DNA of 64,000 bases. Source: Fragilariopsis cylindrus CCMP1102. Its lineage: Eukaryota > Bacillariophyta > Bacillariophyceae > Bacillariales > Bacillariaceae. Shown here piece by piece: positions 54,315 through 58,220 of the stretch. The stretch's first letter is position 1. Every line of letters starts with the position of its first letter. A program made the position numbers and the translations under genes. The DNA is taken from the NCBI GenBank assembly GCA_900095095.1, contig FMBT01000474.1:1-64000 (forward strand). The letters are read 5' to 3'. The notes beneath the pieces are model-generated. The model made no database searches. It was not told the origin of the DNA and was given only the letters and a program-made list of their open reading frames with translations.

Positions 54315-56450
54315 ATGACACGATATTTTTCTTCTTCTTCTTCTTCTCATTCTCCGATTGTCGACATCATGACGGTCATTGTGTTTGGTTGGATGTTCCT
54401 GTTCATTCTTTTCTGTGCAACGTGGACACATAATAACAATATCAATCATCATAACAGCAACGTTGTCGCCATCGATACATCCGCCAATAATGATAATATC
54501 GATTCATTAGTACAATTAAAACATCAAGTGCTGCCATCACCACCATCGTCTACTACATCATTGTCGTATTTGAATTCATCGTTTTCAGTCTTTGATCAAC
54601 GATTATATGAAACACATTTCACTTCACCATACAGTGACTATCCTTGTCAACCAAGAAAAATTCATCTCAGTCCATCCACTGATATCAATCTTGATACTAA
54701 TTTACTGAATATAACCGTCAGTTTTATTCTACCGAACGTTGCGAAACATTGTCACAGCAACAATAACAATAACAATAAGGATAGTAATACCAAGGATAGA
54801 AATAACATACGAACCACGATTACGTATGGTCGAGGAAAGATTACTGAAGGTAGTGTCGTGATTCATTATAGCGACAAAGATGAAAACAAAGATGATGATT
54901 TATATACTATTATTCAATTCAATTATACTAGTCCAAAAACTGGAGAAAAGTATGAAAGTGGTATGATACATCATGTAACATTATCGAATTTACAGGCTGG
55001 TAAACAACGTTACTGGTATCGTATCAGTGTTGTAGAAGAAGAAGAAGAAGAAAGACAACAAAAACGAGGACGACCGCCGCTCACACTACCAGTAATAGTT
55101 CCTTTATTTTACTCACAATATCCACATTTCTTTTTACGTGGAAGTTATAATGATTATTATAATTATGAATTGAAATCGGAACTGGAATCGAATATTAAAC
55201 CATCAACATCATCAACATCATCAACAATGTCAACGTCAACGTCAACGTCAGCAGTACTACTGGGTGAAACACCTCTGTATGAATTCTCTACTCCACCAAT
55301 GTATGGACAACCAACAAGTATTGCATTTATTGGTGATTTAGGACAAACAAAAAATTCGACACGGACTATGGCACGAATTCTTGATGCTGCTACTGCAACA
55401 TCAACATCAACAGTAATGAACGACAATGATCATGATAATAATAGTGATAATAATAATAATAATGATGATCGTGTTGTTACTAATTTATTAATTGCTGGAG
55501 ATTTATCATATGCAGATGGTGATCCTACACGATGGGATTCGTGGTTAGAATTAGCAGAACCATTATTGCGATCAGTACCATTTGCATCGGTACCAGGGAA
55601 TCACGAAATAGAATGTGATCAAGTAACGCATGATGTCTTTGTACCATATGAATCATTTTTTCGGAATCCGAATCGTATTGATACTGCCATTGAATTTCCA
55701 CCATCACAAGATTATATTGATAGCATGACCTATGGCTGTGCCACAAATTCGAATTTTTTAGGACGGTATGACTATGGGAATGCCTATTATTCGTACCGGC
55801 ATGGGTTAGTTCATACAATTATGTTAAATTCCTATACATCAATATTAGATGGTTCGTTACAACGTACATGGTTAACAGAAATTGCATTACCAAATGTAGA
55901 TAAGTCAATAACACCCTGGTTGATTATTGTATTCCATACACCATTATATACAACATTTAAAAGTCATATCAATGAAATCAATCCAACATTAATGAAAGAT
56001 AGTGGTATACGACAATTATTCCAACGATATAAAGTTAATTTAGTTATCTCTGGACATGATCATGCATATATGAGAACTAAACCATTAAATCCGAATGGTA
56101 GTGTCGCGGAAAGTAAAGCAGGACCAATATTTTGGACACTTGGTGCTGGTGGTAATCGTGAAGGGCATTCGGAATACATAAATCCAATTCAGCAAGAAGA
56201 CTGGGTAGATAAACGTGACGATGATGAATTTGGATTTGGTCTTTTCTTTGCACAGAATTATACCCATGCACACATACAATGGATGCGTGATGATGATAAT
56301 AATAATGCTACTACTGATGTCGATAATGAATATGATAACAATAATAGTATCGGTGGTCCTACAAGTACAAGTTCCGTTGTTGTCAGAGATAGTTTATGGA
56401 TCGAGAACTATTACTATGACCGTGACGTCGATGCTACAAATGACGAATAG
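54315..56450 (+). CDS. Purple acid phosphatase (metallophosphoesterase)
   Basis: The 711-residue single frame has a membrane or signal segment at about residues 17-38 (IVDIMTVIVFGWMFLFILFC), then a fibronectin-like N-domain (GSVVIHYSDKDE; YESGMIHHVTLSNLQAGKQR, YWYRISV). The metal-binding motifs follow in order: IAFIGDLGQT (near residue 336), LIAGDLSYADGDPTRWDSWL (near 394), SVPGNHEIECD (near 427), IIVFHTPLY (near 538) and ISGHDHAYMRTKP (near 578), with GAGGNREGH after it. These match the five blocks of high-molecular-weight purple acid phosphatases, secreted or vacuolar Fe-metal enzymes that release phosphate from organic esters. Block five reads GHDHAYMR where plant enzymes usually have GHVHAYER. 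Confidence 0.9.
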   Translation: MTRYFSSSSSSHSPIVDIMTVIVFGWMFLFILFCATWTHNNNINHHNSNVVAIDTSANNDNIDSLVQLKHQVLPSPPSSTTSLSYLNSSFSVFDQRLYETHFTSPYSDYPCQPRKIHLSPSTDINLDTNLLNITVSFILPNVAKHCHSNNNNNNKDSNTKDRNNIRTTITYGRGKITEGSVVIHYSDKDENKDDDLYTIIQFNYTSPKTGEKYESGMIHHVTLSNLQAGKQRYWYRISVVEEEEEERQQKRGRPPLTLPVIVPLFYSQYPHFFLRGSYNDYYNYELKSELESNIKPSTSSTSSTMSTSTSTSAVLLGETPLYEFSTPPMYGQPTSIAFIGDLGQTKNSTRTMARILDAATATSTSTVMNDNDHDNNSDNNNNNDDRVVTNLLIAGDLSYADGDPTRWDSWLELAEPLLRSVPFASVPGNHEIECDQVTHDVFVPYESFFRNPNRIDTAIEFPPSQDYIDSMTYGCATNSNFLGRYDYGNAYYSYRHGLVHTIMLNSYTSILDGSLQRTWLTEIALPNVDKSITPWLIIVFHTPLYTTFKSHINEINPTLMKDSGIRQLFQRYKVNLVISGHDHAYMRTKPLNPNGSVAESKAGPIFWTLGAGGNREGHSEYINPIQQEDWVDKRDDDEFGFGLFFAQNYTHAHIQWMRDDDNNNATTDVDNEYDNNNSIGGPTSTSSVVVRDSLWIENYYYDRDVDATNDE

Positions 56451-56547
56451 ACGGGACGACTCGACTCGCACACGTAGTATTTATTTTCTTTTAAAGACTG
56501 CAATTTAAAAAAATATTTAAGCATAATGCTACGTTTTTGTTCTCTTT

Positions 56548-56611
56548 TTCAGTAGGCAGAATTTGTATATAATAATATTCATATTAATACCAAGATTTCT
56601 ACCTACGTCAT
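56548..56611 (-). promoter_or_regulatory. SECIS-like element in the 3' flank of the CobB/CbiA gene
   Basis: On the minus strand, ATGAC (56611-56607) is followed at once by GTAGGTAGAA (56606-56597). After a 35-base A/T-rich loop comes TTCTGCCTAC (56561-56552) and then TGAA (56551-56548). The two 10-mers pair fully with one G-U pair. ATGAC and TGAA align as the non-Watson-Crick quartet of a eukaryotic SECIS, and AAA comes ten bases after ATGA, where the conserved apical A pair is expected. TAATA and TATTA in the loop can form a small extra hairpin, as in form II elements. GTTC and GAAC outside could form the basal helix. It lies about 75 bases past the last stop of the CobB/CbiA frame. Confidence 0.5.
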
Positions 56612-56684
56612 TAAAGTAGGAACGAATGACGCTGTGATCATGATGTCTCGTGAATATCCTTCTACTAGTAGTTCCAAATAGTTC

Positions 56685-58220
56685 CTAGTAGTAGCATACA
56701 AGATCGTCGCTAAAATCCATTGACAACCTTTTAAAGTGTGTAGATTTTGACGAAGAAAATAGCCTCGCTATTGCCTCAGGATTGGATGGGAAGAACATAT
56801 GTAGATATGTTGCGGTTAATGAGCCGTAACGATATACAGCTTCTCCTGGATAACTAGATTTCTGACGAATACCATGAGAGTAAGGTTCGGGAGTGTTATC
56901 ACTTCGGGACTTATGATGAGCATGGGCACGGACCTTACCCTCAGGAAGAGGTACCGTTTGCATTCCCTGTCATCCACCTTTACTTTTCATAGTTCCTACT
57001 CCTGGTATCAGTCCTGTCATACACCATGTGTTGTCATGTAAGTCAATAAGAGTCTCCATGCAGTAAAGAAAGCCACCACATTCAGCTAGAATAGGATTCC
57101 CTTCCTTATGGAAACTTCGTAATGATAATAACATATTGATATTCCCGGATAGTTCTTTTGCATATACTTCAGGATATCCTCCTGGCAGCCAAAGAGCGTT
57201 TGCTTCTAACGGAATTGAATCATCGTGGATAGGTGAAAAGTAGCATATTGATGCACCCATATCTTTCAGAAGTGTAATATTAGCAGTATATGTAAAGCTG
57301 AAAGCATCATCCTTTGCAATGGCGATTGTTATACCCATTAGTTGCTTAGAACTTATGGTCGTAGTGTCAATGAGCTGCGACGGAGGATGAAAGGTCACAT
57401 GCTTGAGGCGATCAATATGTGTCAATATACCTGATTCCTCTAGTAGATCCGCTCCCGCTATAAGGCATTGTTCAGTAAAATTTTCACCCATTTCAGATGG
57501 TTGTACTAAACCAAGGTGACGTTCCGGAAGTTTCACGGCATCCGTACGTTTTAGTGCAGCTAGAAGTGGTAGATCATCGGGAAGTTCATCTCGAACCAAC
57601 TTTGCATGGTAGTTGCTACCACAATAATTAGCAATAACACCAATCATAGTAAAGTCATCTCGATAATTACGTAATCCAACTGCAATTGCTGCTGCTGTTT
57701 GTGCCATCGCTGAGATGTTCATAATCAGAACTACCGGTATACCAAATTTTGCAGCAAGGTCAGCACTCGATGGTGTGCCATCGAACAATCCCATTGCACC
57801 CTCAATCAATATAATATCTGCCTTGCCTTTGGACACAGCACGAAAAAGTTCTAGTCGACACCATTCTTCTCCAGCCATCCATAAATCAAGCTGGACAACT
57901 GGCGTAGTCGATCCACGTTCTAGAATTTGTGGATCAAGATAATCTGGACCAAATTTGAATATTCGTACAGTTTTACCATTGCGATGAAGTAGACGTGCAA
58001 GTGATGCAGTGATCGTCGTTTTACCCTGTCCCGATGCTGGTGCGGATATGAACAGGGCGGGACAACTCAAAGGAGTAGCAGTAGCAGTAGCAGTAGCAGT
58101 AGCAGTAGTACTGTTGCTAGTACTGTTGCTAGTACTGTTGCTAGTACTGTTGCTACTACTGCCGTCGGGTGCTGATGTCTGCTCGTGATCATCGCTCATC
58201 GTCGTATGTGTTAACAGCAT
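56685..58220 (-). CDS. Cobyrinate a,c-diamide synthase family protein (CobB/CbiA) with in-frame TGA
   Basis: The start is ATG 58220 (MLLTHTTMSDDHE); the longer frame starts at GTG. After an Asn/Ser/Thr then Ala/Thr repeat, the P-loop ATPase domain begins: LFISAPASGQGKTTITASLA, KFGPDYLDP, LIEGAMGLFDGT. The glutaminase half follows: LWLPGGYPE and ILAECGGFLYC with the nucleophile Cys (near residue 378). TGA at 56970-56972 is codon 417. The frame then continues QGMQTVPLPEGKVRAHAHHK, with the expected catalytic His, and EAVYRYGSLTATYLHMFFPS NP as a family-typical end, to TAG at 56685. The full length would be 511 residues. The enzyme amidates cobyrinate side chains in B12 synthesis with glutamine and ATP. 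It is most similar in pattern to bacterial forms, so transfer is likely. Without read-through the glutaminase His is lost. Confidence 0.85.

Follow-up and report, generated by a model that had tools for sequence, protein, structure and literature searches.

The window analysed here, a stretch of 64,000 nucleotides from the diatom Fragilariopsis cylindrus, carries on its minus strand a gene of the CobB/CbiA family whose reading frame is crossed by a TGA codon and followed by a SECIS-like hairpin (Table 1). Enzymes of this family amidate the a and c side chains of cobyrinate. Translation of the frame from 58220 to 56685 gives 511 residues, in which the TGA at 56972-56970 is the sole internal stop. 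The CobB profile NF002204 aligns with residues 53-476 at 379.4 bits (E = 2.1e-113), so that the diatom protein passes the curated family cut-off of 254 for CobB/CbiA; the score against the older model TIGR00379 is 241.1 bits, under its cut-off of 261.4. The match to the GATase_3 profile extends over residues 298-480 and crosses the position of the TGA. Translation and profile matches thus confirm what an earlier sequence-only reading had claimed, namely that a lone TGA interrupts an otherwise intact CobB/CbiA frame.

Both Cys381 and His474 of the glutaminase are present in the diatom protein. Cys381 is the probable glutaminase nucleophile, and the spacing of the two residues is presumably that of the class I glutaminase pair. 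The earlier proposal that the HAHHK block downstream of the TGA is the glutaminase histidine block is probably wrong, as Cys381 and His474 are the residues that are invariant in 33/33 bacterial CobBs. At the other end of the protein, the Ser/Thr/Asn/Ala-rich N-terminus corresponds to a triplet-repeat stretch (58060-58170, minus strand); in the other haplotype this stretch has 30 bases fewer. The convergent neighbor on the plus strand (54315-56450) is a purple acid phosphatase-like gene with PF00149 and PF14008 matches.

Table 1. Features of the CobB locus, in positions of the window.
Feature	Position	Strand	Remarks
CobB/CbiA coding frame	56685..58220	-	511 codons and TAG; one internal TGA; NF002204, PF07685, PF01656
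Cys381 codon, probable glutaminase nucleophile (AECGG)	57078..57080	-	invariant in 33/33 bacterial loci
TGA codon 417, proposed selenocysteine codon	56970..56972	-	aligned with Cys TGC/TGT in 9/9 nearest-clade bacterial loci
94 codons 3' of the TGA	56688..56969	-	conserved; contain H-A-H-H (433-436) as well as the invariant His474
His435 codon	56916..56918	-	in the bacterial loci examined, only together with Cys at 417
SECIS candidate including lower helix I (56623-56618 with 56545-56539)	56539..56623	-
ATGA, 5' side of SECIS quartet	56608..56611	-
Helix II 5' arm, 10 bp	56597..56606	-	end overlaps AAA at 56598-56596
Helix II 3' arm	56552..56561	-
TGA, 3' side of SECIS quartet	56549..56551	-
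Putative poly(A) signal AATAAA, 3' of the hairpin	56480..56485	-	from sequence alone

The TGA column in bacterial homologues and the second haplotype

To place the TGA within the family we compared 33 distinct bacterial loci, made up of three loci (L019-L021), 29 from a larger search and the distant CobB L040. The larger search gave 59 match rows in 57 of 369 genomes at E <= 1e-60, and loci were taken from 30 of these rows, one of them a repeat (L036); L036-L039 were dropped as repeats of L019-L021, and the near-copies L042/L043 and L048/L050 were counted singly. Column 417 is Cys, encoded by TGC or TGT, in all nine distinct loci of the nearest clade and Gly, Ala, Asn or Ser in the 24 others, L040 among them, a distribution that carries a small bias towards Cys because the bacterial loci are the best matches to a query with C at 417. 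Position 435 divides the loci in the same way, with His in 9/9 Cys loci (H-A/S-H-H) and Phe or Tyr in 24/24 of the rest. The motif GGCQGMQ, which the sequence-only reading had named for some bacterial homologues, does exist: it is exact in L045 and takes the form xGCQGMQ in the other Cys loci, and the objection that homologues might lack Cys at this place falls away. A single third-position change leads from TGC or TGT to TGA.

The bacterial proteins of L019 (a Pseudomonadales MAG), L020 (a Thiotrichaceae MAG) and L021 (Hahella), all of the GCQGMQ type, are 49-59% identical to the diatom protein and share its Cys381, His474 and His435. They differ from it in having Cys where the diatom has UGA, and the diatom gene stands alone and has the Ser/Thr/Asn/Ala-rich N-terminus. 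Mainstream CobB of the HTFHYS type belongs to the same family and shares the invariant Cys and His, but its residue 417 is Gly, Ala, Asn or Ser and its residue 435 Phe or Tyr (24/24). The L019 gene sits between CobO and CbiD genes by Pfam matches, and the L021 neighborhood looks alike from ORF translations alone. On this evidence the enzyme in bacteria is probably a genuine CobB of the cobalamin pathway; the neighbors of L020, judged by eye, are unlike cob genes. No relatives were found in IMG/VR, a plasmid search returned 135 records, all below 60% identity, and a sequence search of the PDB listed no CobB structure.

In a tree built with C in place of U at 417, a branch with support of 96/100 sets the diatom protein and the nine Cys loci apart from the others; the diatom lies within an inner group (96/95), where it adjoins L019 (84/89). 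In a quick tree with the trait block removed and L040 left out, the SH-aLRT support was 99. The branch of L060 is long, and both trees flagged the letter composition of the diatom protein as unusual. The simplest history that we infer, in the direction of the transfer and of the replacement alike, would be that a Cys gene was transferred from a gammaproteobacterium and that Sec then replaced Cys in the diatom line.

The diatom genome that was searched comprises 67.9 Mb in 818 contigs. It has 27 silicon-transporter matches, in keeping with a diatom, and several of these are paired on different contigs with equal or nearly equal scores, and the assembly is taken to hold both haplotypes. A second CobB copy at C46:45857-47359 encodes a protein 97% identical to that of the C566 copy, and each copy has the same single TGA; as the surrounding 3 kb aligns at 95%, the C46 copy is most likely the other haplotype. 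Between the two copies there are 3 substitutions in the 282 bases 3' of the TGA (1.06%) and no indel, 20 in the 1,092 bases of codons 53-416, 23 in 445 bases of 5' noncoding sequence and 14 in 234 bases of the 3' region, which puts the flanking noncoding divergence at 5-6%. Only two codons differ after the TGA, too few for dN/dS, and noncoding divergence was therefore used as the yardstick. Identity to the nine Cys-clade bacteria is 55-72% after the TGA against 48-58% before it, and in 9/9 comparisons it is the part past the TGA that is more conserved. Judged by these sequence comparisons, the TGA is genuine, and selection acts on the frame downstream of it. Relaxed selection after the TGA had been named in advance as a finding that would count against a selenoprotein; the low divergence between the haplotypes relative to noncoding DNA and the high identity to the Cys clade speak against it.

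The SECIS-like hairpin

The candidate hairpin begins 73 bases 3' of the CobB stop. Read on the minus strand from 56611 to 56549, it opens with ATGA and C, continues with the ten pairs of helix II and an apical region that contains a small stem, and closes with U and GA; helix I lies beneath the quartet. If the downstream AATAAA is a poly(A) signal, the hairpin would fall in the 3' UTR. When set against the SECIS parameters printed in PMC2375036, the distance from NTGA to AA is 10 bases (range 10-13) and the two energies, at -20.4 and -16.9 kcal/mol, lie below the limits of -12.6 and -3.7, while the distance from AA to GA, at 45 bases, is above the default of 15-39. Long mini-stems are described for Ostreococcus in that paper. 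Folded freely, the sequence has two of its three A in pairs and some of the 3' quartet bound to other bases; when the quartet is kept open the energy is -16.8. The SECIS-like 3' structure of the sequence-only reading is thus upheld in its ATGA, ten-pair helix, TGA and AA distance, and departs from the published default in its AA-to-GA spacing.

A strict SECIS-like descriptor, composed after the candidate had already been seen, gave four matches on both strands of the window (128 kb), of which the CobB hairpin was the best-scoring and the only one with ten pairs and zero mismatch. Its score of 11.3 was not equalled in 40 dinucleotide shuffles of the whole window (5,120 kb; 166 matches, best 10.5). 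When the 235-base 3' region was shuffled 5,000 times, any match arose in 24 cases and none reached this score. The RNAfold z-score of a 111-base stretch is -2.91. The haplotypes differ at three bases of helix II, and 16/16 pairs are intact in both: one pair changes from G-C to A-U, with both sides altered, and another from U-G to C-G by one change. The shuffle control for covariation, powerless with two haplotypes, gave 251/500.

Rfam SECIS_1 had no match over the whole genome, with the control genomes also silent, and a run of all Rfam families gave no SECIS match either in the 251-base region or in eight further loci, GPx and SelT among them; as the GPx and SelT loci given to the models are also unmatched, this silence is little informative. 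A flexible fold-based scan that requires unpaired AA did not return the CobB candidate. On the GPx and SelT positive controls, a relaxed descriptor found a hairpin at L024, L026 and L031 and none at L023 and L025. At L026 the Sec codon is beyond the exon that was matched and was not seen, and among the four controls with a visible TGA the hairpin accompanies it in two (L024 and L031), which makes this a weak control. Equal scores occurred in 14/300 shuffles for L024, 15/300 for L026 and 2/300 for L031, against 0/300 for each CobB copy, and the CobB copies score highest among the loci tried. The AA-to-GA distance in the candidate hairpins of GPx L024, GPx L026 and SelT L031 is 54-84 bases.

Selenocysteine machinery and corrinoid genes of the diatom

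The genome has 13 tRNA-Sec matches over the cut-off, while the control genomes have matches in 14/14 and matches over the cut-off in five; the anticodon is TCA in all eight loci run through ARAGORN. The matches (loci L009-L016, on contigs C69, C547, C56, C138 and C678) are arranged as triplets spaced 163-220 bases on four contigs, plus one single. One or two tRNA-Sec copies are usual, and 13 matches exceed this number even when halved for two haplotypes. SepSecS is present, and SelD is over its cut-off in the genome, with matches in 14/14 control genomes and over the cut-off in two. A second SepSecS match, L018 (C651:13064-13414), was flagged with one TGA; this TGA opens the translated match and is perhaps an exon edge. 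An in-frame TGA stands at the expected place in GPx L023, L024, L025 and L029/L030 and in SelT L031. This gene content indicates that the organism can make selenoproteins.

CbiC, which makes the CobB substrate, gave no match in the genome search, a gene for which 7/14 control genomes have a match. A CobO/BtuR-like gene occurs in two copies, whose identity to the CobO of L019 is 31% and 28%. With a CobO/BtuR-like gene and no CbiC match, the substrate of the diatom CobB would probably be imported corrinoids or another tetrapyrrole. The two copies of this CobO/BtuR-type corrinoid adenosyltransferase, L072 (C778) and L073 (C810), are 90% identical in DNA, and L073 has an apparent frame shift near its start. 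The diatom has further CobB-like genes, L003 (C78), L004/L007 (C196) and L005/L006 (C672), which are 28-30% identical to the Sec CobB over long matches and 36-42% in segments; L003 and L005 exceed the NF002204 cut-off, and the C196 and C672 copies resemble a haplotype pair. The matches to L003, L004 and L005 end short of column 417. CobB-like proteins in eukaryotes are not new as such, one having been reported from a prymnesiophyte transcriptome in PMC4057078.

Alternative explanations, the proposed enzyme and its significance

With one stop in the whole frame, the gene has the look of a fresh nonsense mutation, and a recent pseudogene or a sequencing error would explain the TGA as a chance stop. 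Such an accident is very improbable given that the same TGA stands in both haplotypes despite a noncoding divergence of 5-6%, that the 282 bases past it hold three substitutions and no indel, that the nearest clade has Cys at the column, and that a SECIS-like hairpin lies at the expected place. Splicing would remove the TGA if it were intronic, and GT and AG do flank it, with one in-frame option of 33 bases found by eye; both flanks align gap-free to three bacterial CobBs (alignment columns 401-500), so that removal of an intron would cost conserved residues, and we give this explanation hardly any weight.

Another alternative is a leaky stop, at which ordinary readthrough inserts Trp, Arg or Cys and selenium plays no part. 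A C directly after UGA favors leakiness; the CobB UGA has one, and the extension past it is conserved. Yet readthrough does not predict Cys in 9/9 clade members, and it leaves the hairpin with its paired changes and the Sec machinery without a role here, which makes a leaky stop improbable. The hairpin might instead be a structure at the 3' ends of two convergent genes and not a SECIS, as the purple-acid-phosphatase-like gene ends at 56450, and with 234 bases between the two stops the 3' ends of both genes are crowded around it. A generic hairpin of this kind, however, has no need of ATGA, 10 bp and TGA with AAA nine bases past the ATGA; this arrangement is rare in shuffles, and its pairs are maintained despite base changes, so this origin of the hairpin is as poorly favored as the leaky stop.

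We therefore consider it highly probable that the locus encodes a CobB gained by horizontal transfer, in which selenocysteine took the place of Cys, with UGA decoded via a SECIS. The Cys column, the constraint past the TGA and the presence of the TGA in both haplotypes support the interpretation of codon 417 as Sec put forward from the sequence. The UGA would be decoded by tRNA-Sec, directed by a type II SECIS in the hairpin that starts 73 bases past the stop, and the product would be the full-length 511-residue amidotransferase; a stop at the UGA would mean the loss of 95 residues, among them the invariant His474. Residue 417, Sec or Cys, lies in the glutaminase domain. As Cys at this position occurs only with His435 in the loci examined, residues 417 and 435 probably act as a pair near the amidotransferase active site, which may be a metal ligand or a redox-active site. 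More tentatively, and with rather less than even confidence, we propose a selenium-dependent amidotransferase in which a Sec417-His435 metal or redox pair, with Sec gained after the transfer, would let selenium supply control the amidation or remodelling of imported corrinoids.

Diatom CobB has in common with known algal selenoproteins (PMC7539508 and PMC2375036) a UGA at a Cys column, a downstream SECIS-like hairpin and the Sec machinery, while the algal selenoprotein names examined in these papers include neither CobB nor any other amidotransferase. PMC7539508 counts 42 families of algal selenoproteins, and PMC2375036 lists 16 selenoprotein genes for Thalassiosira pseudonana, with no CobB among them; the terms CobB, cobyrin-, cobalamin, diamide and amidotransferase are absent from the main text of PMC7539508. 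The nearest parallel in origin is AhpC_b, a Sec family for which the authors of PMC7539508 suppose a prokaryotic origin by horizontal transfer, and which has an AhpC/TSA domain, unlike the amidotransferase CobB. The one apparent mention of CobB in PMC7455551 is an author's name, Cobb. The literature search, limited to open-access papers, found no report of a Sec-containing CobB.

In our judgement the gene would represent a new selenoprotein family, founded on an enzyme family already known. Selenoproteins known so far are for the most part thiol-redox enzymes, and it would be new to find Sec in an ATP-dependent glutamine amidotransferase of the corrinoid pathway. The single gene suggests the gain of Sec, within a eukaryote, by a bacterial Cys enzyme that had arrived through horizontal transfer; if true, the change from Cys enzyme to Sec enzyme after the transfer would be a gain of Sec, the opposite of the usual loss and the direction that PMC7539508 describes as theoretically harder. 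The finding also points to an unexplained Cys-His pair in one bacterial CobB clade. If the selenium-dependent enzyme proposed here is real, the selenium nutrition of the diatom would be tied to its vitamin B12 nutrition, linking two scarce nutrients of phytoplankton.
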